In this document: one piece after another, positions 13,528-57,506 of the stretch
How positions within the stretch are numbered: position 1 is the stretch's first letter
How the letters are laid out: the number at the start of each line of letters is the position of its first letter
Source of the DNA: Coptis chinensis
Taxonomy: Eukaryota > Streptophyta > Magnoliopsida > Ranunculales > Ranunculaceae
Assembly (NCBI GenBank): GCA_015680905.1
Contig: CM027379.1
Coordinates: forward strand, 99,313,001-99,377,000
Length of the DNA: 64,000 bases
Direction of reading: 5' to 3'
Position numbers and translations under genes: made by a program
The notes under the pieces: generated by a model
Told to the model about the DNA's origin: nothing
Databases searched by the model: none
What the model saw: the letters and a program-made list of their open reading frames with translations, nothing else

Positions 13528-13556
13528 CTAGTATGCCAACCGAGCTTCGCACTGGT
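13528..13556 (-). other. Helitron 3' terminus: hairpin and CTAG
   Basis: Minus strand: CCAGTGC-GAA-GCTCGG forms a stem with a GAA loop, one mismatch and one bulge. TTGGCATA and CTAG follow, then the host T. The 12-base gap between hairpin and CTAG and the CTRR end are canonical. The slightly imperfect stem fits an aged copy. Confidence 0.85.
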
Positions 13557-14549
13557 TTTTCAAAAGTAGTCGGTGCACACATGGTATTTTAAGAAAATTC
13601 TGCTCAAGGATCATTCTAAGTTGATGCTTAATTGCTTCACATATATATGATGTATGTATATGAGCAATTATTATATACACTACCCTGTCCCATGGTATAT
13701 GTTTGGGCTGGAGGATTGAGATTTGATTCGGACTAAAGTTTCTTTTCCTTGACACAACAATCGATTTTATTGTCAGATTTCTAAATGGATTCATAGATAA
13801 TTGCCTGAAATAACTTTGGTTCACAATCGTTTTTAGATAAGACAATGCTCTTTAATACCAAAAGGAATGATGTACAATGTAGGAGGCCTCAGCCAGTGAA
13901 GCTGATGGACTGATGGTCTTGGCGTGCGTTAGTGGAAGCAGTATGTTGGTCTCTGTCTCTGAGAACCACTTTTGGCATGTAGAGAACATTGTGTCAGAGT
14001 ATTAATGATTAGGCCAATGAAATTACTCAGTGATCGTCTCAAGCTCATTATAGTTGCAATTTGCATTGAACTTTCACGATTAGTCTGGTACTCTGAATTT
14101 GAAATTACCGGTACACCGGTGATAGCTGATACATTGCCATCGATACGGTTGTTATCATGCAATGACGGTTTATATATAGCACGATGTTACCTACATAAGT
14201 ACAGATAGCACACACACTTAACATACACGATACACACGGACACACCATATATTCCACATAATTACTATAGGTAACATTCCCTTACGATGAAAATTGAAAA
14301 ATGGTAAACTTAAATAGATATGTGCTGGCGTGTGGCATATAACTGATGAAGTCAAATTTGGTCATGCGGGTTAATTTTCTGAGATAACCATTTTAAGGGA
14401 GTGAAAGCATATCTAATAGAAAAGACTTATTAAAATTGACCAGATTCTGTGTGAATGTAGTTTGACTCTGATCACATCCAGCAAAAAATCTTCTAACCAG
14501 GCAACCCTACACACAACTATTCTAAGAACCTCCGAAGTCATCAAGTCAA
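13557..14549. other. Helitron 3' interior, no gene recognised
   Basis: There are open frames of about 77-105 codons on both strands (for example minus 13528-13845), but none has a recognisable motif. A CCGGTACACCGG palindrome lies at about 14109. This is possibly Helitron non-coding or captured DNA. Confidence 0.4.
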
Positions 14550-14580
14550 ACTATTCTAAGAACCGCTGAAGGATTCACAA

Positions 14581-16140
14581 GGTGATACTCTCACTGGCCA
14601 AGCTGAAGTCATCAAGTCTATCTTGGAGTATTACACTGATTTGCTTGGAGCAGATGCAGGAGAGATATATGAAGAGGAGTTCCTTAACGAATTGCAGGTC
14701 AGAGACACAGTATCTGATCAGATGAAACTTAGTCTTGATACAGAGGTCACAGCAGAGGAAATCAGATCAACCCTTTTTGAGTTGAAGGACAACAAAACAC
14801 CAGGACCTGATGGCTTCACTCCATATTTCTTCAAGAGATGCTGGTCTATTGTTGGTCATGACTTCACTGCGGCTATCTTAAATGCTTTTGCTTATTGTAG
14901 ATGTCCTAGAGGTGTTAATGCTACTTTTCTATGTCTCATACCAAAAGTCAGCAATCCCTCCAAGGTTGAGGATTTCAGGCCTATAGCATTGTGTAACACT
15001 ACATACAAATGCCTTTCTAAAATCATTTCAAATAGGCTAAAGCTTGTTATCAATGACCTAGTGCAGACTAATCAATCTGCTTTCATCCCTGACAGATCAA
15101 TCCAAGATAACATTCTCCTTTCACATGAGCTACTCAGAGGTTATGAAAGGAAGAATGGTACTCCGAGATGTACCATCAAGGTGGATATCAGGAAGACATA
15201 TGATATGGTAAGTTAGGAGGCTATCAAATCTATGTTGAAGATTTTCAGCTTCCCACCTAACATATGCAAATGGATTGAAATGTGCATCTCAACTCCTTCC
15301 TACTCTGTATTGATAAATGGCGCTCCTGAAGGATTTTTCTCTGGAAGAAGAGGAGTTCGTCAAGGAGATCCTCTATCTCCATATATCTTTGTGCTTGTTA
15401 TGGAGATTCTCAGTTGTATTCTCAAGCAAAAGATTGATGATAAATCCATTCAATATCATTCAAAATGCAAGTAGGTGAAGTTGTCCCATTTGGCATTTGC
15501 GGATGATGTGCTCATGTTCTATAAAGGGGAGGCTTCCTCTGTTCAAGCAATCAAGGAATCTCTTGACATGTTTGGAAAAGCTACAGGCTTACAGATCAAC
15601 AAGTACAAGACAACTCTCTTAGCAGGTGGTCTAAATGAGCAAGATTCTGTATCCTTGGCCTCTATACTGGGGGTGGAGTTGGTTAAACCACCAGTGAGAT
15701 ATCTTGGTTTACCACTCATCTCGGCTCGGTTAGGCATAAGGGAATGTCAGCCTCTTGTGGAGAAGGTAACAAATAAGATTACAAACTGGAAATCGAGACT
15801 GCTTTCTTATTCAGGAAGAGTACAACTAATCCAATCAGTGCTGTTATCGTTTCATACCTTTTGGGCTAGAACCTTCATTTTACCTAAGACGGTACTGGAG
15901 CAAGTTGAAAGGATCTGTGTCAAGTTCTTATGGTCTGGAAGTTCTAACCAGAAAGGCTATCACCAAGCAAGTTGGAGAATGGTTTGTCAGCTAAAAGAAG
16001 AAGGTGGGTTAGGATTTATGAACTTGCATAGATGGAATATTGGTGCGTATTGTGGTTTGATCTTTAAATTGGTAACAAAAGAAGATACAATATGGGTTGA
16101 TTGGACGTGGAAGCAACACATCAAGTCAAGTCACTTTTAG
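14581..16140 (+). pseudogene. LINE-B reverse transcriptase (three in-frame stops)
   Basis: Fingers and palm motifs are clear: DNKTPGPDGFTPYFFKRCW, FLCLIPKV, DFRPIALCN, YKCLSKIISNRLK, QSAFIPDRSIQDN, RRGVRQGDPLSPYIFVLVME, then HLAFADDVLMF with the catalytic aspartates, and GLQINKYKTTLL. In the parallel sequence the first and third stops sit where tryptophan is expected (M-V-S-W-E-A and H-F-W-T-M-K), so TGG became TAG. The RNA-dependent DNA polymerase is inactive in this copy. Confidence 0.88.
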
Positions 16141-16559
16141 ACTATGAAGGTGCCACAAGATTGCTCGTGGACATGGCGTAGTATTCTGAAGACAAGAGCA
16201 GTGGCCAAAAATTTCATAAAATACACCATTGTAAATGGGAATGACGTCTTATTGTGGCATGATATATGGTGTGATCGATCACCATTGATAGAAGACGAAG
16301 AAGCTAAAGCAGAGTGGAATTTCCCTGATGATACAAAAGTGAGTGCACTCATTGAAAATGGGAGGTGGAATGGAGAAGTTAATGGTTTACAGTCATTGTC
16401 GCTGAAAGAAACTATTAGGAAAGTGGAGATTAATCAGCATCTGCCAGCTGATAAGATCGTATGGACTCCACATCAGAGTGGACTTTTCACATCTCACAGT
16501 GCCTACGATGCTCTAACTCAGAGGAGAGAAACGAAAGGATGGCATAAACTGGTGTGGGG

Positions 16560-16740
16560 AAGATGGGTACTGCCAAGACACTCATTTACTACCTGGCAAC
16601 TATTCTTAAACAACATTCCTACTCAAGACAGGTTGGTACAAAGAAAAATCATTTCCTCTTCAGCTTGCTGTCTTTGTAGTAACAGCAGAGAGTTCTCTGT
16701 GCATTTGTTCTTTGAGTGCTCTTATTTGAGGGAGATTGTT
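16560..16740 (+). pseudogene. LINE-B zf-RVT zinc-binding domain
   Basis: The frame 16144-16953 encodes WGRWVLPRHSFTTWQLFLNN and PTQDRLVQRKI followed by CCLC and HLFFEC, the CxxC...H...C zinc-binding module between RT and RNase H in plant LINEs. Confidence 0.85.
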
Positions 16741-17102
16741 ACCAGAGTCAAGCAACTGCTGGGCATAGTTACGGATAATAGATCAGCAAACAGAGAATGG
16801 TCTTCGATCCAAAGACTCTGCAAGAATGAGGAGGTGGGGGAAATCTATAAAGTCTTCTTTTGTACAGCTGTGGATAGCATATGGAAGGAAAGAAACTCTC
16901 GCAGATTCAGGCAAATTTTAAATCAGCTAGGACGATATTTGACAAACTGGTAAGTGAGGTAAGAAATTATCTGCAAGTTCTGAAACCGGAAATTAAAGAG
17001 TCCATCACTGCCAGGAATTTGTTTCATCGGTTAAATATAGATATCCAACTGAAGTTTCCAAGATATACGGACTGTTTCTAGATTCCTCCACTTGGAAATC
17101 GG

Positions 17103-17579
17103 GTGAAGGCAAATGTTGATGGTGCGTTGAGTACCAATGGGACAGGGCATGGTGGTCTAATAAGAAATCAAGTCGGCAGTGTTCTAGCTTGTTTTAGTGG
17201 AAGCGGAGGAATGCACTTAGTGCTCATTCAAGAATTAAAAGCCATTGATATATGTCTACAGAGATGTCTGTCAGAGGGATATAAGGAAGTAGAGGTGGAA
17301 ACTGATTCTTTGAGGGCAGTGAAGGCTATCAATAAGTTGGAGAAGCCACCTTGGTACTGTTGGGATATTCTGGAAGCCATTGAAAAGAAAAAAGAAAAGT
17401 TTATCTTTGTTTCCTTCTCCCATGTGTACAGAGAGGTAAACAGAGCGGAAGATTACTTAGCATCTCTAATTCAGGGTAGTTGTAATCTTTTAATTCAATT
17501 TGTCCCTCCACTAGATCATGTATTGCAGAATATTATAAATGATGATGTGAGTGGACAAAAGTATGTAAGAAAAGGTTAA
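17103..17579 (+). pseudogene. LINE-B C-terminal RNase H
   Basis: A 158-codon frame with RNase H-fold residues: NVDGA (first D), the GGLIRN strand, QELKAI (E), ETDSLRAV (second D), and the H-V-x-REVNRAEDYLA segment near the last catalytic D/H. Plant L1 elements of this type carry this domain to remove RNA from the hybrid. It lies in a different frame from the zf-RVT, so the pol frame is broken. Confidence 0.85.
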
Positions 17580-18313: not shown

Positions 18314-18412
18314 AACATTTTGTTACATTAGAAGAAGCAATTTCATCACGATAGTAACAAATGTTTGCCTTCACATAAAAATTAATAATAATACAATAGT
18401 TGGATATCTATA

Positions 18413-19153
18413 TGTAGAGAAAAACGATGTTTTCTTATTCTGGTGTGAAAGGCGCGACCCGCGCTCCATTTACACCTGGGCAAGGCGTGACCCGCGCTCA
18501 TGTTTTTGGCGACCTCCAGTGATTTAAGCGCGACCCGCGCTCAACTTTGCCTGGTCGAGGGCGCGACCCTAATAATAATACAATAGTTGGATATCTATAT
18601 GTAGAGAAAAACGATGTTTTCTCATTCTGGTGTGAAAGGCGCGACCCGCGCTCCATTTACACGCAAGGCGTGACCCGCGCTCAACTTTGCCTGGTCGAGG
18701 GCGCGACCAGCGCTCCACCTTATTTCAGCACGAATTTGCCATTTTTCGGAAGTTTTCTGAAATAGTATAAATATAGGTTTTTTCTGTAGAAACCTAATTT
18801 TTCCAAAACAAAGAAAGAGAGAGATTATAAGTGAGCAATTCTTTGTGAGTTGAGTGTTCATTCTTTGTGAGTGAATTGAGAGACTTGTAATATGTTACTC
18901 CGGACATCTAGTAAAGCTTGGAACTGGTAATGTGGACGTAGGCAAATTGCCGAACCACGATATATCTCGTCTTGTAGTTTGTTCTTCTTTTATATTAATT
19001 ATTTTACTTTAGATACTTGTTATTTGATATTGAGAAGTGTTGGGATTACTTTGGAGGGTGTTGAAGTCTTGTCTAGTAAGAAGGATCGATCCTTGTGTAG
19101 GATTGATCTATTATAGTGGGTAACATTATTTTCACAGTGTTATATTCGTAACA
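18413..19153 (+). repeat. Copia 5' LTR with a duplicated left end
   Basis: The LTR proper is 18600-19153 (554 bp). A 187-bp tandem duplication places a second copy of its first part, together with about 30 bp of host flank including CTATA, to the left (18383-18569). It starts TGTAGAGAAAAACG, has TATAAATA at 18766, and ends ...GTAACA before the primer site. CGCGACCCGCGCTC words recur in its U3. Confidence 0.88.
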
Positions 19154-19154
19154 A

Positions 19155-19168
19155 TTGGTATCAGAGCA
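19155..19168 (+). other. Copia primer binding site (initiator Met tRNA)
   Basis: TTGGTATCAGAGCA, one base after the LTR end, is the usual plant Copia site complementary to the 3' end of initiator methionine tRNA. Confidence 0.9.
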
Positions 19169-19266
19169 TAGGTTTACGACCTAGAAATTGGTGTAGACAA
19201 GGTGTTCGATTAAATTCCTGAGTTAAAGTTTTTTTTTGTTTGGGTTATTGTGTGTAACTTGAAAAA

Positions 19267-20020
19267 ATGGCTCCCAAGATGTCAAATGCTAAGTTTGAAG
19301 TAGAGAAGTTTAATGGGAAGAATAATTTTGGGATTTGGAGAATCCAAGTAAAGGACATCTTCATCCAATAAGGTTTGCATAAGGCTTTAAATGGGATTAA
19401 ATCTAAGGCGGCGAGTATGAGTGATGATGATTGGGAAGAGTTCGATCTACAGACTTGTTTATCAATCCGGTTGTGTCTTGCTAATGAGGTTATGTATAGT
19501 GTGATGGGAGAAGATACCGCTGTCGATATTTGGCTCAAGCTAGAGTCTATGTATATGACCAAGAGCATGACTAACAAGATGTACCTTAAGAAGCGTCTTT
19601 ATCGGTACATGATGGTGGATGGTTCAACGATGCAAGAGCACGTTAGTGAGTTCCGTCGATGCCTAGCGGATTATTTGAATGTTGGCATGAAGATGGATGA
19701 TGAGGATCAAGTGGCATGTTTAATATTCTCTTTGCCAGAAAGCTATGAGCATCTAATGACTAACTTTATGAACAGAGAAGATGTAGATCTCGACGAAGTT
19801 CAAACTGCGCTTCTTTCTTATGAGTTGATGAAGAAGACACGAGTTGAGAATAGCATTGATGCAGGATAGGGGCTAGTGGCAAGAGGAAATTTGTATGAAT
19901 AGAATTCTACAAGTAATGAGAATTCTAGGTCCAACTTAAAGAAGCCTTTAAAACATGTAAAGTACTACAATTGCAATGAAAAGGGACATTACGTAAGTAA
20001 TTGTCCTCACCCGAAGAAAG
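19267..20020 (+). pseudogene. Copia gag with zinc knuckle (fossil)
   Basis: Begins at MAPKMSNAKFEVEKFNG and shows the UBN2-type gag domain of plant Copia elements (WLKLESMYMTKSMTNK, LKKRLY, FSLPESYEHL), then a CCHC knuckle (YYNCNEKGHYVSNC) near 19965-20005. The domain forms the virus-like particle. Confidence 0.85.
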
Positions 20021-20129
20021 AGAACAAGAGAGATAGTCAGAAGAAAGGTAAGGCACAAATTGAGGCAAGTTATGCTTCAGGCTTTGAAGGGGATGAGTTC
20101 AGTCTCTGTGTGCCCACACAAGACTATAT

Positions 20130-21190
20130 GACCGAAAGGTGGATTCTTGATTCTGGATGTTCTTATCATATGTGCCCGAATAAAAAGTGACTTACTTATT
20201 ATGAGAGCATTGATGGTGGTTCCATTTTGATGGGTAATAACGTTGCTTGTAAGACGATAGGAATTGGAACTATACAGATCAAGATGTATGATGGTGTAGT
20301 GAGGACTTTAACCGATGTGAGACATGTTCCTGAGCTAAAGAAAAGTTTTATTTCTCTTGGTACCTTGGATTCCAAAGGCCACAAGTTTGTGGGCGAAGGT
20401 GGAGTCCTAAATATTGTTAATGACTCTTTAGTTGTTATGGAGGGTCAAAAACATGGAACCTTATATACTCTGATAGGTAGTACGGTGATAAGCGATGTAG
20501 TAGTGGGTGCATGTAGTAATGATTTTGAGTGTACTAAGATATGACATATGCGTTTAAGGCATATGAGTGAAAAGGGTTTGTCTGAGTTGTGCAAATGAGG
20601 GTTCTTGAAGAATTTGAAGAAGCCAAGTATAGGGTTCTGTGAGCATTGCGTCTATGGTAAGTAGTGTAGAGTCAAGTTCAAGTCAAGCAAGCACACGACA
20701 ACAGGCATCCTTGACTATATGCATACGGATGTTTGAGGACCCTCCAGGGTGGCTTCAAAGGGAGGTAACCGCTATTATGTCTCATTCATTGATGATCATA
20801 CTTGCTATGTGTGAGTGTATATGATGAAATCAAAAGATAAAGTGTTTGAGACATTTAAGAAGTGGAAGGCAAGGGTTGAGAATCGCACAGATAGGAAGGT
20901 AAAGACACTACGGTCTGACAATGGTACTGAGTATACCTATGGACCTTTCCAAGAGTTTTGTCTTGTAATGGGGAATTGCCGCATTAATGGACGATCGAGG
21001 GCATGCCACAGCAGAATGGAATGGCAGAGAGGATGAATAGAACCTTGCTTGAAATAGTGAGATGTTTGTTGTCTAATGCCGGTCCCAGGCAAAGATTATC
21101 AGCAGATGCGTTATCCATGGCGTGTTACCTGTACAATAGGTCACCAGTACCAGCTATAGATTACAGGACACCTTATGAGGTGTAGTTAAG
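20130..21190 (+). pseudogene. Copia protease and integrase (fossil)
   Basis: Protease motif WILDSGCSYHM near 20140-20180, then integrase pieces: the zinc-binding H-x-x-x-H region near 20545, the core (LRSDNGTEY) near 20910 and GMAERMNRTLLE near 21010-21050. Confidence 0.85.
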
Positions 21191-21739
21191 TAACTTAGCT
21201 GATTATAGTATTTTGCGAGTGTTTGGATCGATAGCTTACTACCATGTGAGGGAAAGCAAGCTAGATCCTAGAGCTAAGAAGGCCATATTCTTAGGTTTTG
21301 CAAATGGGGTAAAGGGATATAGATTGTGGTGTCTAAAAGACCACAAGTTCCTAGTTAGCAGAGATGTTACCTTTGATGAGACTTTTCTGTTATCTTTCAG
21401 TAAGCCGAAAGTAGCTGGGTAGAATGGTGAGTCTATAGAAGTTCAAGCTACTGAGCTTGAGTTGTTTGATGCAGTAGATGACTGGTTAGATCATGATGAG
21501 GTACCAAATCATGAAACCACACAGCAACAGGAAGAAGAGCAAGAGCATCCGCAACTTGTACTGGTTGACCCTAGGCCAAAGAGACAAGTTAAAGAAGTGC
21601 ACAAGTATGGGCACGAGAAGCCGGTAAAACAGTATGGTCAGGTGGATTTAGTGGCATATGCACTGAATATCGAAGATGATGAGCTAGATAGCTTCAAGGA
21701 AACTGTTAGAGATGCTCATTATAGAGATTGGTTGGTAGC

Positions 21740-23242
21740 TATGCAAGCAGAGATGGAATCTCTTGATAAAAATCACACATGGGACCTAGTTTTATTGCCA
21801 AAGGGCAAAAAGACTATCGGCAGTAAATGGGTGTTCAAAAAGAAAGAGGTCCTTCCTGAGTCTGATAGTACTGGGTACAAGGCAAGAGTGGTAGCAAAGG
21901 GTTTTTCACAGAAGGAAGGAGTCGACTATAATGAGGTATTTTCCCCGGTGGTCAAACATACATTCATTTGTGTGTTATTGAGTTTAGTTGCTCACTTCAA
22001 CTTGGAGTTAGAGCAACTTGATGTGAAAACTGCTTTCTTGCATGGGGACTTGGAGGAAGAGATCTATATGAGACAACCTGAAGGGTTTGTCGTTGCTGAG
22101 AAAGAAGATCATGTATGCAAATTGAATCGGTCACTGTATGGGTTAAAGCAATCACCCAGGCAATGGTACAAGCGCTTTGACACGTTCATAATGCAACATG
22201 AGTACACCCAAAGTAAGTATGATTGTTGTGTTTACTTTCATAGGCTTCGTGGTAATGACTTCATCTATCTCCTGCTTTATGTGGATGATATGCTTATTGC
22301 TTCCAAAAACATGGTGGAGATAGACAAGTTGAAATCCCAACTTAGCTCTGAGTTTGAGATGAAAGACTTAGGTGGAGCCAAGAAAATACTGGGCATGGAG
22401 ATTGACAGAGATAGGCAGAATCGACGGATAGTTGTATCTCAGAAGAAATACCTTCAGAAAGTACTTTCGCGTTTTGGTATGGAGAATGCAAAGTCGGTTT
22501 CTACACCTTTGGCTGGGCATTTTAGGCTTTCAGCTAAGTTCTCTTTTAGTTCGGTGGAGGAACAAAAGCATATGGCACATGTTCCTTATGCTAATGCAGT
22601 GGGCAGTTTGATGTATGCTATGGTGTGCACATGCCCAAACATTTCACAGGCAGTTAGTGTTGTAAGTAGGTATATGGCTAATCCTGGGAAGCAGCATTGG
22701 GAGGCAGTGAAAAGGGTATTAAGGTACTTAAAGGGTACCTTGGATGTAGGATTAGTTTATGGTGGAGGCACTTGTTATGTCAGTGGATATGTGATTCAGA
22801 TTATACAGGTGATCTAGATAGACGACGATCGACTACTGGTTATGTTTTTATGATGCATGGTGCACCGGTTAGTTGGAGGTCTATGTTACAGGCTACAATT
22901 ACTCTATCTACTACTGAGGCAGAGTATATGGCAGTGGCAGAGGCAGTGAAAGAGGCATTATGGCTTCGAGGTCTTCTGGATGATATGGGTATTGAGTAGA
23001 ACAGTGTTGCTTTGCATTGTGATAGTCAGAGTGCTATTCATTTAGCGAAAAATCAGGTTCATCATGCTCGGACCAAGCATATTGATGTCCGTTATCACTT
23101 TATACGGGATGTCGTTGAGGATGGTGATGTAGCACTTGAGAAAGTGGACACCCATGACAATCCTGCTGATATGATGACTAAGGTTGTCACCGGAGTTAAG
23201 TTCCAACACTGTTTGGACTTGCTCCAAATCCTAAATGCTTGA
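21740..23242 (+). pseudogene. Copia reverse transcriptase and RNase H (fossil)
   Basis: RT motifs KWVFKKK, QLDVKTAFLHGDLEEEIYM, LYGLKQSPRQWYKRFD and the catalytic LLYVDDML (about 22277), then RNase H ([54 protein letters not shown]). Confidence 0.9.
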
Positions 23243-23363
23243 TAGAGCCCTTTGTGGGCATGGCCCTTAGGGGCGGATGGATTGCGAGTTTCTGGATGGA
23301 TGTGTTCTTGCTGGATGTGTTCGGCTCGGTTTTATGTGTTCAAACCTCACCGAGGTGGAGAAT

Positions 23364-23932
23364 TATAGAGAAAAACGATGTTTTCTCATTCTGGTGTGAA
23401 GGGCGTGACTAGCGCTCCATTTACACCTGTGCAAGGTGCGACCCGCGCTCATGTCTTTGGCGACCTCCAATGATTTAAGCGTGACCCGACGCTCCACCTT
23501 ATTTCATCACGAATTTGCCCTTTTTCAGAAGTTTTCTGAAATAGTATAAGTATAGGTTTTTTCTATAGAAACCTAACTTTTCCAAAACAAAGAAAGAGAG
23601 AGATTATAAGTGAGCAATTCTTTGTGAGTTGAGTGTTCATTCTTTGTGAGTGAATTGAGAGACTTGTAATCTGTTACTCCGGACATCTAGTAAAGCTTGG
23701 AACTCGCAGTGTGGACATAGGCAAATTGCCAAACCACGATATATCTCGTCTTGTGGTTTGTTCTTCTTTTATATTAATTGTTTTACTTTAGATACTTGTT
23801 ATTTGATATTGAGAAGTGTTGGGATTACTTTGGAGGGTGTTGAAGTCTTGTCTAGTAAGAAGGATCGATCCTTGTGTAGGATTGATCTATTGTAGTGGGT
23901 AATGTTGTTTCCGCAGTGTTATATTCACAACA
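23364..23932 (+). repeat. Copia 3' LTR
   Basis: A 569-bp direct repeat of 18600-19153, preceded by a purine-rich GAGGTGGAGAA and followed by the target repeat CTATA. Confidence 0.92.
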
Positions 23933-23937
23933 CTATA

Positions 23938-27953: not shown

Positions 27954-28298
27954 TATATAATGTTAGATCGACCGAGAACAGATAAGTAGGAGATTATCTT
28001 TTCAAAGTTAATATAATTAACTAAAAAATAAATATAAAATGAAAACAAAGGTATGTCCAATGAAGTAATAAACTGTAATGATTTCAAACACTTGGCATAT
28101 ATAGAAAATGGTTGTGTATATTCCAATAAAGAACAAAAGAGAATAAAAAAAAAGATAGCGAATGTGAATAATGTCTCCATAGTAGCTGCTGGTCCTCTAC
28201 ACTATAATAGAATAAAAAAATTAATTAGTTAATAAGCAATTCTCTCTATATGAAGTTAAAAATTGAAAATTTGAGATTGAACTAATATATTTTTTACC

Positions 28299-44212: not shown

Positions 44213-44942
44213 CATAATGAAGTGTTCGAGCCAAGTGTTGTGTTTTAGTTAGGTTTTGACCCATTCCAGTTAAGGTTTGGTATTTGGTCTCACCATTTTT
44301 TTGATATTTTAGATGGAACAAATAGATTGCTCTTTTGATTGATGGAACAAGTTAGGTCATTATTATTTTGATAGAACAAGTAAATTTGGATGTTTATTTC
44401 ATTATTGATGACTCGAAAAAGTTCAAAACTCTTTTAGCAATTCAATGTCTTCGTGTTGGATGTTTAAATTTATTTCTTTTGTTCATGTTGTACTATGAAT
44501 TGTTTATTTGAGTAATGTGTTTTTAAATCCAGTGTGGATATATATGGTGAAAAGGGCAGGTTGTAGGTTGAATGAATATGATTAGAATCAAATAATTAGG
44601 GGCTTTTATTTTTTTTTAAAAATGACTATAAACCACGGTTTGGTAAGAACCGAGGTATAAGTAGTTTATATACCCCACGGTTTTTATCCAACCGTCGTAT
44701 TAGCATCACTATTCCCCACGGTTCACATCGAATAGAGCATATTGTTAAGACTATTAACCACGGTTTGGAAATCCTAATATCACGGTTTTAGTCAAAACCG
44801 TGGTATATAAGAGGTACTATTACCCATGGTTTTGCTAGAAGTATTTGTCACGGTGGTTGTTACCACGGTATGAAAACAGTGACTAAAGGCTTTTTACCAC
44901 TGTAAATAACAGTGATATATGAGCTTTTCTGTAGTAGTGTGT

Positions 44943-45170
44943 GTTTTCTAACATATGAAGTATTGGCCGCTGTCCATAGAACTGCGCAGGGAAATCAATT
45001 GGACTGGAATCAACTGATGGATAGTGTATTGGCCCTTTTTCACCACCCTCAGGAACCGGTGGAGCTGATGGAATAGCATCCATTCTAGTGTGCATAAATG
45101 CCGCTCGCAAGCCCATAAATGCCGCTTGCAATCCCTTTGAATCATTGTGACAACGGAAGTTTTGTTATTC
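44943..45170 (-). other. Gypsy-internal coding-like fragment, unassigned
   Basis: The minus strand reads MQAAFMGLRAAFMHTRMDAI and PPVPEGGEKGPIHYP. It continues the pre-CACTA GCCGCT context. Not recognised; possibly part of the antisense gene's upstream region. Confidence 0.3.
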
Positions 45171-45890
45171 CAAGATAAAGAAGAACAACAGAACCTCTCT
45201 AATAAAGATTTGAATGCCAAAGATGAAACTAATAGAAAGCTGAAGGAGTTACTTAGTCTTGAAGATACCTAGTGGAGATTGAGAGCTAAAGCTTTGTGGG
45301 TGACAAAGGGCAAAAGATGTACAGGATATGTTCACAGAGTTGTCAATGCTAGAGTAGAAGTAATACTATATCTAGGTTATAGGTGGATGGGCAGTTAGTT
45401 AATACATGATCAATAAGTGATTAAAAATCAGATAGTTGATTGGTACAACAATTTATTTGAGGAAGAATTCCTCGTTAAACCTATTCTTGATGGCATTGAA
45501 ATTAACTCTGTGGGAGCCGAAGCTGCAGCTTGGTTGGAAAGGGACTTTGAGGAAGACGAGGTCAAAGTGGCCCTTAAATCTTTGGTGGCAGAAAAATCCT
45601 TTAGGCCAGATTGGGTAGAATGGGGTTTGGTCAGAAATGGTGTAGTTGGATTAAAACATGTTTGTCGACTATGCATTCTAAAAGATCTTAAGGGTTGAGG
45701 CAGGATGCCTCCCTCTCCTATGCTATTTATCATTGTGGCTGAGGCTTTTTATTAAATTGGTGATCAAGGATGAAGAGCATGTGGAGAAAAAGTGAAGAAT
45801 TTGAAGTCGATCTTCATATGGTTTGAGGTTGTGTTAGTGATGCAAACTTCTGCAAGAGTGATGTCTATGCAGTGAATCTTACCTCGACGA
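45170..45890 (+). mobile_element. LINE fragment inside the Gypsy
   Basis: The plus strand shows the linker before RT (RKLKELLSLED, RLRAKALWVTKGKRCTGYVH with W in the usual RSR-W-GD place, IVDWYNNLFEEEF) and then the first RT motif (EVKVALKSLVAEKSFRPDWVEW). It jumps to MPPSPMLFIIVAEAF, so the middle RT is deleted, and a LHVNFCKSD-like piece follows near 45840. Several stops and shifts. It belongs to a different subfamily from LINE-A and LINE-B. Confidence 0.6.
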
Positions 45891-46409
45891 TAGTATAGTG
45901 TATCGCTTCATTGATGTATCAGTTATGAAATCATCGTTGGAAGAAAGCCGGGACGAGATACATTGACAACCCGCCGGTGGAGTCACACCGGACACCAACC
46001 CATTTGGTGCAAATGATGCGTTGGATTGCTTCCATGCTTGTAACAGTTTAGAAGATCTTTGCCTTAAATCCAAGCAGTGCTGTTCTATCACTACGATGAC
46101 AAGCTTCTGTTGTAAGGGAGGAATAAAGGGAGAATGCTGAAGTTAGCTGTTTAGGATCTGATGCTGCATAACCAACTTATTGTGATTAACTGAACAAGGA
46201 CTCAGCGTCCAGTTTTCCTTCTTCAATTCTGAAATTATTTTTATACAGGACTACAAGTACAATGTGATCAATTAGATTGACCCACCTCAATTTCCACTAT
46301 CCATTTACTATTTTACCAATCAATATAACAGTTTACAAACCAACAAACCTATAAAAAAAAAAAAAATCTTTGCCACACAGGCTTTGCCCATGTAACAAAG
46401 AGAGGGCGA

Positions 46410-46925
46410 TGTTCCGGCCCCCACAAATGTGGCCCAATAAAAGCCCAATTCAATATAAAGCCCATGCTCAAAGTCCATGCTACAAAAAAGACCACGCTCA
46501 AAGCCTACATCCCATGACGTTTTGCGAGTCAAACAACTTCCACCAACTTCATCCCACGACAGTTCTCCCACCAGTTCTCCAACTTCATCCCACGACAGTT
46601 CTCCCGCCAGTTCTCCAACTTCATCTCCCGCTAGTTCTCCAACTTCATCCCACGATTTGACAGTTCTCCAACTTCATCCCACGATTGGAATATTGGAGAA
46701 CGAGGAAGTAACTATCACCGATCCTACCTATAAAATCCAACCTTCGTCATTTTTCTAGAACTACGCAATCGAGACTTGATCCCAAGCAATATCTTTGGGT
46801 ACGTAGGCAACTTCAAAACCGAAGTCCAGTCTCATATTTCCCCAACCACCATCTCCTTCACCATCTCCAAAAAAACATTACTTCCTACCCTCAACTGGTG
46901 TGTTTTGGCAAATCTTGCTGAAACA
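46410..46925 (+). repeat. Gypsy 3' LTR
   Basis: A 516-bp direct repeat of 29628-30112, preceded by a purine tract AAAGAGAGGGCGA and followed by GTATT. Differences from the 5' LTR are a few substitutions and copy-number changes in the CCCACGACAGTTCT repeat. Confidence 0.92.
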
Positions 46926-46930
46926 GTATT

Positions 46931-47620
46931 GTAGAGGAATGTCTTGCCAGTCCATCCTCCTCCATAGAAAAAATAAACCCCACCTGAGTTTGTATTGACT
47001 GCATTTATAATTTCATCATATATAGTCCTCTGGTCATGATTCAGGCAGTTTTGCATTTCATGAAATTGTTGGTGCATTTCATTGTGACTATATTCTTGTT
47101 CTTCCGTGATGAGTCTATCTGGGTCTCTAGGTTCTAACCTCATATCTTTGAACAGTATCTTAAAATCCTTCAGTTGACAGTTTACTTGTTTCAGTAATCT
47201 GTCAATCTCAGTCAGCGCATGGTTTCTAAGCTTTTTAGGTGTTAAAATCAGATCACCGTCATTTGCTCGGAGTTCTTTCTTTGTCCAGTATGTCGTCTAT
47301 AAACAACTCCCAATGTCTGTTCCATAGAACCAAAGGTTCACTCACCTCACAGAAAACTAATAGTGTCGCAAATAACTACCTCAAGGAAGCACTACAAGCC
47401 CATTGACTTGCTTCAACGATTGCATTGTTCCATTAAATCGTCATTTTGCAACAGTCCAAGTGCAAGACATGTTGATTTGAAATCCTCATACACCTTGCCG
47501 TTGACAGTTCTGAGATCTTTATATGACGTTGCACCTTTTTGAACATTTAATACCATTCGCAAATAAAACCGTTCGCCTGACGTCGGATGTGCATAAAAGA
47601 TCCTTCCGATTTTTACTCTT
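46931..47620 (-). pseudogene. Helitron helicase, N-terminal part with Walker A
   Basis: On the minus strand LNHDQRTIYDEIINAVNTNS and GGVYFFYGGGWTGKTFLYNT contain the Walker A loop (GxTGKT, with W where G is usual). Its reading frame stops at the Gypsy target site and resumes at 29622 with L-T-Q-L-W. Upstream (47145-47620) the helicase linker is broken by stops and shifts. Confidence 0.85.
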
Positions 47621-47622: not shown

Positions 47623-48486
47623 CTATCTTAATTTCCAATATTTCAGAGAATCAATCCAAACAAATTTTAATGGGAAATCAACATACCTCAGGTGTCTACC
47701 ATCTTCATGTAATTGGTTATAGCGCATCCACTCTGTAAATTTGGTTTTCTTTGCACTTTCACAGGTGATGACTTCATCGGTGTTGTCATCGTCATGATAG
47801 AACATCGTATGTTTGTCTTTAAGATGGAATGGTAGTCTCTCAATAGGTGGGTATTGATATTGGATATCGTAACCAAATAATCTCCAGCAAGCTTCATGTG
47901 CAGATACATACCGACAGTCTAAGAATCTTTGAATTTCATCAACTTGTATTATTGTTTCTTTGGTTTCTGTGTTTTCTACAGTGGTATCAGTCTCAACAAT
48001 AGCAGTGGATCTATCTTGACCTTTGCTCAAGTATTTGAAGAGATACTTGACCATTTGACTTCTATTATAGAACTCCACGTTGATGTGTGCTCCATATTTC
48101 TTTGAAAGAGTTGGATTATAAGGAACAACCCATCTGTTATCAACGGTGAAAGTCTTCTTCTTCCATTTTTTTGTAGTTGTTTTACCTGGTCTTCTCATGT
48201 ACATTGCAAATCCCTTGTCATCGGATGTAGTTTCTTCGCAAAATTCTTTTGGATAAAGTCTAGTACATTTTCTTTCGTTCATGCAAGGCGACTTCTTGTC
48301 TAGCTCTCCACATGGACCGTGAATCATGTTGTCTACGACAATTTCATATAACAATGGGTCATCATTTTTTATCAATGTCAGGATTGTCAGCTGGTGTAGA
48401 AGGCTTGTCATCAGGGTGCAACCAAAGTAGTATGTGAGCGTGTGGTAGACCTCGTTTTTGGAATTCAATAACATAGATTGCTGCAA
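47623..48486 (-). pseudogene. Helitron Rep nuclease, C-terminal part
   Basis: The minus strand carries the HUH motif LPHAHILLWL (about 48418-48447, in the adjacent frame) and then GPCGELDKKSPCMNERKCTR, YPKEFCEETTSD, RWVVPYNPTLSKKY, HINVEFYNRS and the two-tyrosine helix VKYLFKYLSKGQDR (about 48016-48056), the nick/ligation residues of Helitron Rep. It ends in the linker region toward the helicase (CRYVSAHEACWRLFGYDIQ). A frame change separates the HUH motif from the rest. Confidence 0.9.
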
Positions 48487-48549
48487 AATTCAAATCTAAA
48501 AGTAAATAAATATGAATGCTTGATACCACTATATCACATGAAAATTTAC

Positions 48550-48765
48550 AAACAAATTTGTAAATATTTAAAAACAAGTTATGTGACTCAAGTTATGGTA
48601 GTTAATATATTTATTGAAAACTTGAGTCACTCTTGGCATTCATAGTTTAGGCATTCATATTTATTTACATCTTATGTTACTCTTGGCTTGCTACATCTTA
48701 TTCCTTTGTAAATATTAACTCAAGTTATGGTAGTTAATATATAATGTTCTGCATAACCCCGAGCA
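48550..48765 (+). repeat. Direct repeat flanking the kinase-bearing insertion, left copy
   Basis: Matches 52232-52452 (shared AAGTTATGGTAGTTAATATA twice, TTATTGAAAACTTGA, CTTGGCATTCATAGTTT, TTGGCTTGCTACATCT, AACCCCGAG). The same words appear inverted at the Rep exon edge at about 52850-52935. Confidence 0.75.
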
Positions 48766-49974
48766 ACCACTACACCAGAATGGTCAATTCCTAACAGACC
48801 ACTTTTTTAATTTCTAACGGATATATCCGTTACCAACCTTCTTACGAATATATCCGTTACTTATCAAGTTTTTCGTTAGGATATATCCCAAATAAGATAT
48901 TTTAATTATTTTTTAATATATGTTTAAGCGAGAAAAAGAAAATAAAACAAAAGAACAAAAAAAGTAGAGCATCTAAATGGTAAAGTTTCTGCCCGCAACC
49001 AAAAAAGAAAGAAAGTAAAGTTTAACGAGGAAGACAATGTTTTCCTTCTGATCTATCACTCGAAGAGGAAAGGCTCGTCATCTGTTAAGAAGAACAGAGG
49101 TACTCTACCCTCTGATTTCCTTATTGTTCTTAGATTTAATCCCATGCGGTTTTCCTAAAATAGTGTTCATAGATTTTAGGGATTTTTTAGGTAAAAGCGT
49201 TTCTTTTATATAGCTTTAATGGTGGAGACAAGGTAAGCTCTCATTTCGATCTGTTTTCTCTCATTTGTCTAAATCTATTTTTTTTTTTTTTTTTTATTTC
49301 ACTTCTATTAAGTTCCAAATTTATTCAACTTACATGCCATAAACTTGGAGCACCAATCTATTCAATGGGGTTTCCTAAAAATTCTCAATTTGAATTCCTT
49401 TTCAATCTCCAAGAGTATTACGGCAAAGAATTAAGTATTACGGCGTTGTGTTCATTGACACTACTTTAAGGGCATAATGGGGAGGTCTTCGGTCTTGCTC
49501 TTTCAATTGGTAGGATATCGACTCTAATAATTGTATATAATTTGCCTCTAGTTTCTTTTTGATTACCAGGCTTTGAAAACAAATTAGGGTAATGAAGATG
49601 TAGATGGGTTTTTTTTTTTTTTTTTTTTTTCAGTACTGTAATTTGTTGCTTTAGTTTTATAAAGTAATAAAGTCTTTTAAATTTTTATCCTATTTCTGAA
49701 AATGATGAATAGTTAGGGATGTGATTACTGTGCTTGCTTGAATATATATAACCTGACTTTGAGTTTTCCTTTTGCTCATCAAAGTTACCGTAGATTTTGT
49801 GAACAAAGGATGCGGTGGTGTTGGTCGCTTAACTTTTTTTTTTCAGACTGTGAGAGGCACCATGAGATTGATCTGGGTGATTATAAGGATAACAATTTGT
49901 AGACAAAATGAATATTGTGTTGAAGGTGTTGATTTTTTTTTCCTTTTCACTTTTCAGGGTGCTGAGTTTGAAGT

Positions 49975-51414
49975 TATTGAAGCCCCATTAGAGGGAGAAA
50001 TGCTAGTACGACAATCTCCCTTGTTTCTTAGAACTTCAAGTATTCGACACTACAATATGCCACTGGATCATTTAACATTGCCAACAAGATTGGTCAGGGA
50101 GGATTCGGGACAGTATACAAGGTAAGTTGCAAAACTATGCAGATATAAACATTGTTATTGCAACTTGCAATGGCCAAAAAACATTCATAAAATTTGAAAT
50201 AACGGAGACTTTCGACATATCATGAAAACCACTTTTACTGTTGGTGATCAACCTCCTTTTTGCTGACGGGAGTTTTAGCTGATGGAAGAGAGGTTGCTGT
50301 TAAGAGGCTTTTTGTTAACAACAGACACAGCTGGAGATTTCTATAACGAAGTCAACCTAATCAGCAGTTTAGGGCACAAAACCCCGGGTTGTTGGGTTGC
50401 GGTTGTTCAGACCACGAAAGTCTTCGTCTATGAGTTCCTCCCAAACAGGGAGCTTAGATCGCCCTATTTGGTACTTTTCTTAAACTTCACCTGCCTACTT
50501 TTAATTATATGCATGTGAACAAAGATGTCAAAATTCAATAGTTTAACTATGGTATATTCAATAGATTGGCCTTTGACCGCAAAATTGTTAAAGTCCGAGA
50601 TAACCGTGCATAGGACCATCTGTAAGCGTGATTCAATGCTTTTTACACTTACCAACAAACTAGATTACCAATGAAACTACTCTTGTTGCCTCACTTTTGA
50701 TAAATATTCTTAAAATGAAACTAAGTTTCAATTTTGAATCACATAAACAACGAGATACATCGATCCGGAGGAAAAACATTGAACCGGAAGAAGAGATCCA
50801 AGATTATTAAAGGCACGGCAAATGAAGGGATGATTTACCTGCATGAGAACTCAAGATTATAATCATTCACAGAGATATAAAGGCTAGCAATCTCCTTTTG
50901 GATTCTAAGCACCGAAATTGAAATTGCTGATTTTGGGTTGGCAAGATCTTTCCAAGATGACAAAGGCCATATCAAGATCTTTGCCATTCTGCACATTGTA
51001 AGTGGCATTCACTTTTTTCAATTCAAAATAATTTAAAGATATATATATATGTCAGCCTACAAAATGAGTTAGTTTCCATAGAATCGTGTGTTGTACCACC
51101 TCTTACTTACACTCTCCATATAAAGATCATACATAATTCCATATATGTATGCGCATGAAGAAGCGGATTAGCACATCTCCTTTCATATATGTTTACTACG
51201 AGAATTTATGAACAAATTTATGTTTATAATGAGAACATATTAACTTTTTTTATATCCGCAGAGGATATATGGCTCCCGAGTATCTATCACATAGTCAATT
51301 AACAGAGAAGGTCGATGTTTATAGCTATGGGGTGCTTCTGATAGAGATTGTTACTAGAAGACAGAATAACATGAGCAAAACCTCTGATTACTCGGACATC
51401 TTGGTCACCGAGGT
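49975..51414 (+). pseudogene. Captured cysteine-rich receptor-like kinase (DUF26/CRK) fragment
   Basis: Kinase pieces in order: FKYSTLQYATGSFNIANKIG then QGGFGTVYK with donor AAG/GTAAGT at 50121; VLADGREVAVKRLFVNNRH with the catalytic lysine (about 50275-50330), then FYNEV-LISSLGHK; GMIYLHENS, HRDIKASNLLLDS and DFGLARSFQDDKGHI (about 50835-50990); [20 protein letters not shown] and [14 protein letters not shown] (51263-51370) with donor GAG/GTAAGC at 51414. Order, introns and sequence are those of plant CRK kinases. No extracellular or membrane part is present, and stops and shifts occur within pieces, so it is a dead fragment. Confidence 0.82.
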
Positions 51415-51629
51415 AAGCTTACTGAAGTCATCATACTAATAAAAACCATCATTATTGAAAACTTACAATGCTTTTCCCAACTGTTTCATTCAAGCGAAAG
51501 AAAACTAAGTTCAACTATTCAATTTGTTTATCAATTCATTGTCTAATCTGTCAGGGATATATTTTTGTCCCAACTTGATCTATAGCATTTAAGCATAATC
51601 TTTTATGTTTTGAAGTATTCCGTCTGCAC

Positions 51630-51870
51630 CATTAGTGTGTGCGTGTGGTGTTGTGTGCTGGGTGGAGCCTGCTGCTGGGTGTTACTGCTGCCGCTGGCGC
51701 CTGCTGTTGCCATGGACCTGCTGGTGCTTGCTACTGCTGCTGGGTGGAGTGTGTCTGGGTGTTGTTGTTGGGTACCTGCCTGTTCGCTTGCTGCCGCTGC
51801 TGCCATGGACCTTCTTGGTGCTTGCTGGTGGTGGTGGTGGTGTCTTTGGTGCCCTTGGTGTTTAGTTCTT
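51630..51870 (+). repeat. CTG/GGT-rich low-complexity stretch
   Basis: G-rich, with CTGCTGCTGGGTG, CCTGCTGGTG and (GGT)5 words. This composition produces long open frames rich in Cys, Trp or Val in several frames, which I do not regard as genes. Confidence 0.75.
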
Positions 51871-52231
51871 CTTCAGGAAGGGCTAAGTATCAAAAAGCCT
51901 TTGGTACTTAAGTATTTTGTGTTTGTTTTTGCTAGTGACTAGAGAACTTTAAAAAGGATAGAATGAGTGTTATATTCTTGAATGAGAATGATGGTGTACT
52001 TGTGCATTTTATGGAACTTCGTTATGTTCTTATTTGGTCTTATGAATTATATTTTGTTATTTTGGCTTACTTCATTTTTGTTTACTTGCTTTCAATTTTT
52101 GCTTGATTAGAACAAGTCTTGTTTCCAACTTTCTTTTCTTGTGTTGAAAAGAAACCTTTTTGTTATTCATTTGTTGATTAAGTTTGTGGAATGTGTTCTT
52201 TATATCATATTTGATATCCGTTAAAAATTAC

Positions 52232-52452
52232 AAATTTATTTGTAAATATTTAAAATTGGCTATGTGACTCAAGTTATGGTAGTTAATATATTTATTGAAA
52301 ACTTGAAGTATTATCTTGGCATTCATAGTTTATATTCATATTTAAATTTGGCCTTATGTTACTCTTTGGCTTGCTACATCTATAACCTTTGTAAAAATAT
52401 AACTCAAGTTATGGTAGTTAATATATAAAGTTCTCTTTTAACCCCGAGTGAA
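52232..52452 (+). repeat. Direct repeat flanking the kinase-bearing insertion, right copy
   Basis: Second copy of 48550-48765, diverged by several indels. 52453-52850 beyond it is spacer without a recognised feature. Confidence 0.75.
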
Positions 52453-52900
52453 CCATTGGCTTTCAGTTGGAATATCATTCCTTTTTTGGCTTATTTATTA
52501 GTTATTACACTTGGCTTGAAGGTTCTAAGTGAGACATTACACATTATATTGTAAATCGACTAATTATTCCTATATAAAAAGTGTAAGAGAAGGCCGAAAC
52601 TAATTGACCCGTACTACTAACTTGAGGTGTTTGTGAAATCTTGGTAGTGTCGCTTCCCCATACTTACTTTGACAAAATGACAACCATAGACATTTTCTTG
52701 ATCGGTGTTTGTCAACCATAGACATAATAACATCTTACATATTGACTTAATGTACCAGCTTGATTAAATTTTAGAATGAAAAAAAGTGAAACCAGCAAAA
52801 AATAAAATAAAATAAAAATGAATAATTTACGGGGGAAAAAAGAAGGAATAAGATGTTTTCAAGCCAAGAGTCACATAGTTTAGGCATCACACAAATAAAA

Positions 52901-53861
52901 TTAAGATGTAAAATATTTAAAATTAACTACCATAACTTTGCCAAAGTGTTCTTCTTCTTTGAGGTCCTTCATAATTTGATCCACTTTTATTTTAAACGCT
53001 CTAACAACAACTTTGGGACAATATTCGGATTTTAGACCTTCAACTCTTTTCATTGGAAGTTTAATTTCATTCCACTTTGGATTGCAAGTGAATGTGATGA
53101 ATAGATCTGGAGGTCCCGCCCATCTGCATATAGCAATGGCATATTGGTAATTTTGCACCATGTACCGTGGCCCACCAGTAAATGAAGAAGACAAAACTAA
53201 ATGCTTTTCGACTAATCTTGCATCTGTGTCTCCAGCGTGCACTGAGTCAACTATAATCTTATATAGTTCTGCTCTAATTTTGGATTGGTTGTTTCGGAAC
53301 CAATCAAGTCTTTCTTCTTCTACACATGTGTATATATCGACCAGAAATTGCAATTTTACTTTACCACCTCTGACTAAAGTCTGGCCCTCATTTTCACTAT
53401 GTTGAAGTTTGAAGGCATAATATTCTCGCATGCTAACTGTGTGGCGGTGATTTTCTGATATTTCTTCTTCTCCTCGATACAAAATATCGAATGTGTAGCC
53501 GTTCTCACCGTATGGAAATAAAAGAGGATATTGCATTGCCATAAAGCTAGGATAATGTTCAGTAATTCGTTTGAGGCCTTCTTCTTGGTGTTCAACAACT
53601 ATATCTCGATGATGAAATTCAACTCCATTTCCAAACATCAGTGCTGCAACTTCAGTAGATGTAGGCAGGTTGTACTGTCTTGCATCTTTTGAGCGTGTGT
53701 CAATGAGTCTAATGCATACAGGTATGTAGTCCTCTTCATTGAACTTATCTCGTGCCATTCGGAAGGCCTTTGCAATTTCATTTTCCACATTCAGCATTGT
53801 TATCAATCCTTCAACTATACTACCATCTAATGCTTGTTCGAGTGCTTGATTGGCAGAGCAC
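52901..53861 (-). pseudogene. Helitron Rep, Helitron_like_N region
   Basis: The minus strand carries the conserved N-terminal Rep block: IVEGLITMLNVENEIAKAFR, MARDKFNEEDYIPVCIRLI, HRDIVVEHQEEGLKRI, HPSFMAMQYPLLFPYGE-like (YPSFMAMQYPLLFPYGENGY), MREYYAFKLQ, FLVDIYTCVEEERLDWFRNN, then DLFITFTCNPKW and MKDLKEEEHFGKVM. It runs to the exon edge at about 52920, after which the HUH part resumes at 48486. It is separated from the upstream block by a TAG at about 53865. Confidence 0.92.
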
Positions 53862-53866
53862 TTAAC

Positions 53867-54294
53867 CTATTGGACACCTCGCTTCTCGTGGTCATATATA
53901 TAAAGCTGCGCAAACTTTGGTTTATCTCCTATTGGAAGTAACGATCCAATTTTATGGTAATTTTGTCCATGAATTCTGAAGACATATGGACCACCACCAT
54001 TGTTAATTGCATAGTCTATTTTTCCACCCATTGATGTGAAAGCAAAGATCGAATTATATGATCTTATGTTTTCAATAAAATGAGTGCTTTTTGGTCCCCT
54101 TGATTCAAGCAGATCCTTTAAGAATTGTGGAGGATTCTTCAATAGTGGAAGTTGTATCTTTCCCACTTGACAACAAATGGAGAATGTAGGCAGCTGTCCC
54201 TTTTGTTTCTTGTTGTTCCTTTCTTCATTCCAGAGTATAGCTCCACAGAAAGAACAAATTTTGTTGGGTTCACCAAAGTCCCATAGTTCTATAT
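53867..54294 (-). pseudogene. Helitron Rep, zinc-finger-like N-terminal exon
   Basis: The minus strand reads NKICSFCGAILWNEER (CxxC), FSICCQVGKIQLPLLKNPPQ, FIENIRSYNSIFAFTSMGGK, PYVFRIHGQNYHKIGSLLPI and FAQLYIYDHEKRG, the classic plant Helitron N-terminal domain. The exon begins after an acceptor (TTTCTTTATATAG) near 54295, and the block ends at a stop. Confidence 0.9.
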
Positions 54295-54368
54295 AAAGAA
54301 AAAAAAGATAAGAAAAAGGATATAAGTTATTAATCGAAATATTCAACGTGTTTAATTTAATACTTACC

Positions 54369-54641
54369 AATATCGCGAGTACTTTTGCGAAGTGGAATGC
54401 TGTCAATGAAATCAAAATCTGACAAATCAAAATTTGTTGAATTGTTGTTGATGTTCTAAAAATCAACGTCAGTAGTAATGTTTCTTTCCCTATTCACGGT
54501 TTCTTCTCTATGCATAGACTGAACTCTTCGAATATTTGAAATTCTGGTAGCACGCGAATCATTTATAACCAACACTCTTTGTGGGAGAAGATTGCATCCT
54601 AGCCTTGATTTACGAACATGTTTATTCTTCTCCTTGGCCAT
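54369..54641 (-). pseudogene. Helitron RepHel first exon
   Basis: Begins at the ATG at 54641 with MAKEKNKHVRKSRLGCNL, a basic, nuclear-localisation-like start. It ends at a donor (GATATTG/GTAAGT) at 54369 after SDFDFIDSIPLRKSTRDI. A stop/shift near 54460 breaks the frame inside the exon. This is the 5'-most coding part of the Helitron. Confidence 0.75.
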
Positions 54642-56151: not shown

Positions 56152-56329
56152 GGATTGCCATCTTAGGAAGGTCCTTATTCTAGGGTGGTGTTTATTATGA
56201 GTTTCATGTCTAGTGCTGTACTTCCTCAAGGATGGGATGGCTGGGGTGAGTCGAGCAATCATAGGTACGCCCAAACTAATCCCAGATTTCTACTTTGTGT
56301 AGGTAAAAGTTCCTACAGCGTTTAATGAT

Positions 56330-56610
56330 TCATCCTCAGTGGTCGAAGGGTATTGTCGAGAGAATAGTATGGATAAGGCCTTCTAGCTTCTTGATGAGAT
56401 GAAGAGGAAGAAAGTAAGGTGCACAATGGTGACTTACAGTATAATAATTGATGGACTATGTTGTTATGGGAATTTCTCACGAGCTAATGAAATTCTGAAG
56501 GAAATGGTTGCAGGTGGTCTGAAGCCAAATGCTCAAATATACACAACTCTTATCGCAGGTCACTCTCGTGATGGTAAAGTGGAAGAGGCTAGAAAGGTTT
56601 TAGAGGGAAT
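56330..56610 (+). pseudogene. Captured PPR repeat fragment
   Basis: About two and a half pentatricopeptide repeats on the plus strand, opposite to RepHel: VVEGYCRENSMDKAF-LLDEM, VTYSIIIDGLCCYGNFSRAN, EILKEMVAGGLKPNAQIYTT and LIAGHSRDGKVEEARKVLEG. P-type PPR proteins bind organellar RNA, but this piece lacks start, targeting sequence and most repeats, and a TAG at about 56384 interrupts it. A host fragment picked up by the Helitron. Confidence 0.75.
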
Positions 56611-57054
56611 GACTATCCTACTTGAGATGGTAGACAAAAGATATGATCATGTTACAACTAAGAAAAAAAATCCCAATATATATGAACTCACAGACCACCC
56701 AGCAAAAACAGTCAGGATCAAAGAGAAAGTTGAAAGCAAAATATAGAATCCTTATTCAGGAACATGACACAATCATAGTTTCACATGATTTCACATATAA
56801 ACAAAGTGCAACATATTTAGTTACTCATAGTTTCATGTTCAATCACCCAAAAAAACATCTCCTTATATTCAAATATCTGTGTTTGTGTTCGTTATATATT
56901 GATATTCATCATTTTCAACCAAAACTAAACTTATTTGTCCGCTAATACAGTTATAATACCTATTGCACAACCTAGAGAAAGCATGAAGAACCCGATATGC
57001 ATCTATAAGTAATACACATCAAACTTTTATAATAATAATTAAAAAAAAAAAAAA

Positions 57055-57370
57055 AGGCAAAATTCTAACCTTATACTTATTCGCAGCAACCCACTCTTGA
57101 TACTGCTTCAAAAAAATCTTATACCTCTCAACTGTATGACTCTTCCGCAGCAACCCACACTTGATACTGCTTAAAAAAAACCTTATACCTCTCAACAAGC
57201 TCTCAACAAATCCCTTCATATATATATAGAGAGAAATTGGTGTGGAGTTGGTGTGTTTGTGTAATATAGTGAAATTGGTGTTTGATTTCGATTGCAAGAG
57301 AAATTAGTGTTTGATTTCGATTGGAATTGGTAATTAGTGTTTGATTTCAATTGGAGTTGGTGGGTGTTTG
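57055..57370. repeat. Two tandem repeat blocks near the Helitron 5' end
   Basis: A 67-bp unit (GCAGCAACCCAC-CTTGATACTGCTT-AAAAAAA-CTTATACCTCTCAAC) occurs twice at 57086-57200. A roughly 28-bp unit with GTGTTTGATTTCGATTG occurs about four times at 57268-57370. No gene. Confidence 0.7.
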
Positions 57371-57482
57371 ATTTAGGGATATTTAGTAAATATTTCAAAC
57401 TCAAAGGAGGAATGGCTAAATAATAACAAAAGAGAGATTTAAATTTGCCTACTCGAGATTTGAGGAGGCTTCCGATAGACCT

Positions 57483-57506
57483 GGTTATCATATAGTGTAG
57501 AGAAGA
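57483..57506 (-). other. Helitron 5' terminus
   Basis: Minus strand TCTTCTCTACACTATATG, the TC-start T/A-rich 5' end style of plant Helitrons, preceded directly by A of the NPP gene at 57507. Confidence 0.85.

Follow-up and report, generated by a model that had tools for sequence, protein, structure and literature searches.

A probable Helitron, enlarged by nested retroelements, within an interrupted NPP gene copy of Coptis chinensis

A stretch of 64,000 nucleotides from Coptis chinensis (assembly GCA_015680905.1, contig CM027379.1, positions 99,313,001 to 99,377,000), referred to here as the window and numbered from its first letter, holds an NPP gene copy whose two parts lie 44 kb apart. 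What separated them, and was a single element responsible? Our answer is that the intervening 43,979 bases (13528-57506, minus strand) are very probably one autonomous-type plant Helitron, carrying RepHel followed by an RPA-like gene, that landed between an A and a T within the coding sequence of one member of an NPP paralogue pair, with no base lost, and that was afterwards, on the simplest order of events, enlarged by nested elements. This view is taken because the other paralogue provides the empty site, the insert runs from TC to CTAG in an A|T target, the RepHel and RPA-like pieces are found in order between these ends, and the long terminal repeat (LTR) elements nested among them have target-site duplications (TSDs) of their own.

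The split NPP copy and the limits of the insert

The empty-site reference is an intact NPP paralogue on the minus strand (2996-4339), an open reading frame (ORF) of 447 codons (447 aa) with a Phosphodiest match at E 1.1e-104. The interrupted copy has the same orientation. Its 5' part lies at 57507-58019, aligned as far as 58006 with the last bases read by eye, and its 3' part, comprising codon 348 onward and the 3' flank, lies at 13053-13527, as defined by self-BLAST of the window, flank joining and codon comparison. In the self-BLAST, 3296-3799 matches 57504-58006 at 85.0% and 2842-3298 matches 13053-13527 at 79.8%, both on the same strand. When the flanks were joined by script at 57507 and 13527, they aligned to the paralogue without a gap through GCATATCTCC and with 0 bases lost; with the insert skipped, the codons on either side of the junction are the consecutive codons 347 and 348 of the paralogue ORF. 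An earlier sequence-only reading of this DNA had proposed a Helitron in an NPP exon without loss of a base, and the junction bears this out. The same reading called the boundaries exact. The paralogue does bracket the insert, but the two NPP matches share 3 bases (TCT), so that a breakpoint without duplication slides over four registers and the ends are fixed only within 3 nt.

Among the four registers, only the one chosen in that reading (57506/13528) yields A|TC...CTAG|T. On the minus strand, the insert then begins with TC at 57506-57505 and finishes with CTAG at 13531-13528, between an A at 57507 and a T at 13527, with no duplication relative to the empty-site paralogue. Helitrons insert without target duplication. 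The arrangement A|TC...CTRR|T was met by chance in 59 of 200,000 random position pairs when any of four registers was allowed. The TC start, CTAG end and A|T target claimed earlier are all present in this register. The 5' terminus (57484-57506), preceded by the A at 57507, begins TCTTCTCTACACTATATG. The 3' terminus (13528-13555) consists of an imperfect hairpin, whose stem has one mismatch and one bulge, and CTAG, followed by the T at 13527. Canonical plant Helitrons carry a GC-rich hairpin of 16-20 nt, 10-15 nt ahead of the 3' end; the one here lies in the right place and its letters are HelA-like: the end is one mismatch from the 3' criterion published for maize HelA, CG-N-AA-N-CG-N9-CTAGT, and keeps the exact 9-base spacer (PMC2267711).

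The two flanks have diverged from the paralogue to a similar extent (Kimura two-parameter distance, K2P, 0.154 and 0.170). For the two pieces of the copy (165 and 99 codons compared), synonymous divergence dS is 0.35 and 0.40; the ratio of nonsynonymous to synonymous divergence, dN/dS, is 0.35 and 0.25, and because of these ratios the NPP pair appears to have evolved largely under constraint. In addition, codon 215 of the interrupted copy is a premature TAG, there is a one-base gap, and a retroelement ending at about 58030 cuts the copy once more (58020-64000; junction read by eye); self-BLAST found no second copy of that end in the window. The Helitron therefore need not be what killed the gene. 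Elsewhere in the window, a third NPP fragment (2606-2702) is 88.7% identical to 3816-3912 by self-BLAST, which suggests that the NPP copies belong to a larger tandem array. A long minus-strand open frame (6554-7819) with an mTERF domain (E 1e-38) separates the intact NPP gene from the interrupted one.

Genes and nested insertions between the ends

Of the 58 stop-to-stop segments of at least 100 aa that overlap the insert, 27 were searched with Pfam, as were some shorter pieces. On the minus strand, Rep, PIF1 helicase and RPA-like pieces follow each other in this order between the two ends. Upstream of Rep, an open frame at 53870-54493 has no Pfam match and is probably the N-terminal part of RepHel, judging from its position and from the Rep frame; a stop (53867-53869) separates the two. 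The first part of the Rep domain (52904-53866) matches Helitron_like_N at E 1.9e-37 over profile positions 1-171 of 191, and the last part (48365-48481) covers positions 174-191 (E 2.4e-6, 28.3 bits against a cutoff of 28.9). The latter contains RGLPHAHIL, the HUH motif. The Rep continuation at 47626-48369, recognised by translation (no Pfam match at 0.01, only PUD at 0.06), contains YLFKYLSKGQD, the two-tyrosine motif. The PIF1-type helicase is likewise in two parts, the first at 46931-47296 (PIF1 profile 1-39, E 1.6e-9) and the rest at 28413-29627 (PIF1 profile 40-218, E 2.8e-65; Pif1_2B_dom, E 2.8e-23). Downstream of it lies the remnant of an RPA-like (OB-fold) gene (26231-27944), where DUF223 was matched at E 1.2e-10 after three pieces of 27443-27944 had been joined by hand, and Rep_fac-A_C at E 2.7e-5, under the curated cutoff, at 26231-26353. 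Pieces searched singly (27663-27962, 27789-27944 and 27443-27661) gave no RPA match in Pfam.

When eight Rep, helicase and RPA-like pieces were compared with the window by tblastn at E 0.01, each matched its own place only, so the insert holds one set of Helitron genes; one set, in order between both ends, agrees with the single Helitron event proposed earlier. The RepHel ORF is not intact. It is broken by stops at 53867-53869, 47376-47378, 28410-28412 and 28395-28397, by three or more changes of frame (around 48365, 47430 and 47300, the continuing frame being our reading) and by a gypsy insertion, and RepHel can no longer be produced as a single protein. Near the Helitron 5' end, a PPR gene fragment on the plus strand, antisense to the Helitron (56387-56743; PPR_1, E 8.8e-19), is a candidate for captured host sequence. 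Rfam at gathering thresholds and ARAGORN gave 0 matches over the whole window.

The gypsy element (29628-46925, plus strand) has LTRs of 485 bases (29628-30112) and 516 bases (46410-46925) with a K2P of 0.023, pol domains matching RVT_1 (E 2.3e-29) and RVT_3 (E 1.8e-12), and the 5-bp TSD GTATT on both sides (29623-46930 in all). Across its 17.3 kb the PIF1 profile is continuous, stopping at position 39 and resuming at 40, so gypsy must have inserted into a helicase gene that was then uninterrupted. The helicase gene of the Helitron is older than the gypsy inside it. Roughly 10 kb of gypsy lie past pol; they hold a tandem array with a 45-bp unit (36641-37325) and, on the minus strand, several open frames (37704-39970), three of which were searched and gave only weak Pfam matches.

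The copia element (18413-23932, plus strand) is flanked by the 5-bp TSD CTATA (18408-23937) and matches RVT_2 at E 1.1e-74 and Retrotran_gag_2 at E 3.6e-31. Its LTRs, compared over 18600-19153 and 23364-23932, have a K2P of 0.067; the 3' LTR begins with TA, not TG, and a 187-bp tandem duplication (18383-18708) straddles the boundary of the 5' LTR, including the target-site flank. A long interspersed nuclear element (LINE) fragment with reverse transcriptase and RNase H spans at least 14560-17576 on the plus strand (RVT_1, E 2e-13; RVT_3, E 8.7e-18). The only match found as a target duplication for it is the 9-base CTAAGAACC (14522 or 14556 with 17954), estimated to be no better than chance. 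A second LINE-like fragment occupies the left edge of the window (3-1734; zf-RVT, E 6.6e-8 at 1087-1731).

Between the two Rep parts lies a further block (48531-52455), bounded by 240-bp direct repeats (48531-48769 and 52214-52455; 84% identical, K2P 0.074, 15 gaps) and containing a kinase fragment (Pkinase, E 1.5e-9 at 51233-51436). A perfect CACTA-type end is present at 48768; the window contains 4 matches to such ends, where 1.5 would be expected. No partner was found for it in the right place with up to 2 mismatches. A CACTA origin of the insert was rejected on this single perfect end without partner, and would at most concern the inner block. The 3.7 kb at 48769-52455, which start with this CACTA-like end, may have been either inserted or captured.

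Once gypsy, copia and LINE are subtracted, the insert measures 18,134 bases, and with the 3.7-kb block taken off as well, 14,447. The threefold inflation by later nested elements that had been estimated holds at 3.0-fold if the block counts as secondary and becomes 2.4-fold otherwise, and the word later depends on the simplest order of events. From LTR divergence, copia would be older than gypsy. At 1.3e-8 substitutions per site per year, their ages would be about 2.6 and 0.9 million years respectively, values that are only indicative. Published autonomous-type Helitrons of maize measure 12.2, 13.0 and 14.6 kb (PMC3288121), and the insert comes near these sizes when its nested elements are discounted.

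One Helitron or another history

Several observations count against a single Helitron that grew in place. The hairpin is decayed: the 33-base 3' end folds at -2.6 kcal/mol as DNA, with a shuffle mean of -2.36 (z -0.17; equalled by 81 of 200 shuffles), and a 24-base stretch folds no better than 130 of its 200 shuffles. Of the hairpin-CTAG end reported earlier the CTAG is there, but the hairpin is degenerate and no more stable than shuffled sequence. The HelA 3' criterion with at most one mismatch is expected 1.14 times per window and was found twice, once at the true end, whose place was preset by the paralogue, and once as an exact match inside gypsy (43423-43426; 0.035 expected, no inverted repeat seen by eye). 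A plain hairpin-CTRR scan, run on the insert's minus strand with a minimum hairpin score of 6, returned 12 internal sites and missed the true end. At the other end, the maize HelA 5' consensus (PMC2267711), with one gap allowed, has 5 differences from a start at 57506 and only 2 from a start at 57503. Furthermore, the RPA evidence is modest, and the insertion of the retroelements after the landing in NPP, on which growth in place depends, is the simplest order and is argued from parsimony.

The 5' consensus raises the variant that matters most, namely that the element begins at 57503 (TCTCTACACTATATG). The start letters are TCTTCTCTAC in the 57506 register and TCTCTACAC in the 57503 register. 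If 57503 is the true start, the additional TCT has to be accounted for by a target duplication of 3 bp, by a triplet already present in this gene copy (a T|T target) or by bases brought along from the donor; insertion between two Ts does sometimes occur (PMC4683698). A fit with 2 differences or fewer is reached by 15 of the 7,958 TC sites in the window. Still, neither the paralogue nor ENPP3 (6c01) has an extra residue here, so a triplet would need an additional event, and Helitrons are described as inserting at AT sites (PMC6591975). The consensus, being derived from maize HelA, may not fit this Helitron family. According to the EAHelitron authors, 5' ends are less conserved and one element may have several (PMC6591975). 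This start is a variant of the Helitron reading, with which its odds overlap; we regard it as a serious possibility, yet an unlikely one, and 57506 is kept as the working 5' boundary.

A composite of two Helitrons, inserted in the same place or head to tail, could have supplied the 5' end from one and the 3' end from the other. In maize, Helitrons lying next to each other head to tail have been described, as have others with more than one terminus of a kind (PMC2267711, PMC3288121), and one of the 12 internal hairpin-CTRR sites (56282) lies in Helitron sequence outside the nested elements. The other 11 lie within gypsy, copia or LINE, and the two ends enclose a single ordered set of Rep, helicase and RPA-like pieces, which makes such a composite very improbable. 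As alternative 3' ends, the internal sites were rejected because the paralogue fixes the boundary. We give hardly any weight to an insertion made by another class of DNA transposon or by a retroelement, with a Helitron inside it: nothing was found to speak for it beyond the shared TCT, which would permit a 3-bp duplication, but the ends are TC...CTAG, neither CACTA...TAGTG nor TG...CA, and RepHel is oriented as these ends require. The search for terminal inverted repeats was made by eye only. An assembly chimera, in which unrelated contigs were joined inside NPP fragments, might be imagined in so repeat-rich a window; it would have to break at consecutive codons and at Helitron-like termini, between flanks that are similarly diverged, and the window has an N count of 0, so that we consider it scarcely credible.

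Two departures from the simplest history can be taken together. Some or all of the retroelements may already have been inside when the Helitron moved, up to 44 kb in one rolling-circle event, one or both of copia and gypsy having ridden in with it; or the 5' end is at 57503 and the TCT is a 3-bp duplication or donor DNA acquired through a shifted 5' nick. That one of them took place seems improbable to us. At its full extent, the former would exceed the 39 kb that is cited for maize Helitrons (PMC6431247), and the latter would be an exception to the no-duplication rule.

Under the preferred reading, a single Helitron enlarged after landing, the course of events can be outlined from the known mechanism of the family. 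The Rep domain would have cut a single strand at the TC of the 5' end, rolling-circle copying would have continued as far as the hairpin-CTAG terminator at the 3' end, and the strand would have been joined into the A|T site without staggered cuts. Copia, gypsy and LINE would then have arrived, bringing some 14-18 kb to 44 kb, copia probably before gypsy and the LINE at no assigned date.

Comparison with known Helitrons

The event is of a known kind, unusually well bracketed, and leaves knowledge of Helitrons unchanged. The earlier remark that such a bracketed copy is rare for its size is weak, as PMC6431247 cites maize Helitrons that reach 39 kb. The interest of the locus is that a single window shows an empty site and both element ends together with the coding genes and several nested insertions. 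It could serve as a test case for annotating Helitrons broken by nested retrotransposons, and for the study of Helitron decay within a gene. The pattern of the 3' end and the 5' end, scanned exactly, had 0 matches in prokaryote and viral contig collections, which has no bearing on plants, and a literature search with the literal 3' stem letters and 'Helitron' returned no match.

Of the features canonical for plant Helitrons, TC and CTRR ends, A|T insertion, RepHel and, on more modest evidence, the RPA-like gene that many of them have are found here; the hairpin stands in its place but is no more stable than shuffles. The closest parallel found is the pearly-s Helitron of Ipomoea tricolor, 11.5 kb in DFR-B. 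It is a spontaneous cultivar mutation, whereas the Coptis insert, in an NPP gene, is more decayed and reaches 44 kb with nested retroelements. Maize ZmhelB1 and ZmhelB2 (12,992 and 12,217 bp) have the same order and orientation of RepHel and RPA-like sequence and a length similar to that of the insert after subtraction (PMC3288121); however, their ORFs are intact with RPA in the same ORF, while the genes here are broken. The maize HelA Helitrons (PMC2267711) share the 3' pattern with one mismatch, and their 5' end is matched only by a start taken 3 bases further in. Finally, Rep and helicase sequences interrupted by other transposons are known from maize (Morgante et al., cited in PMC3288121), and those of the Coptis insert are likewise split by nested insertions, here with an intact paralogue that gives the empty site.

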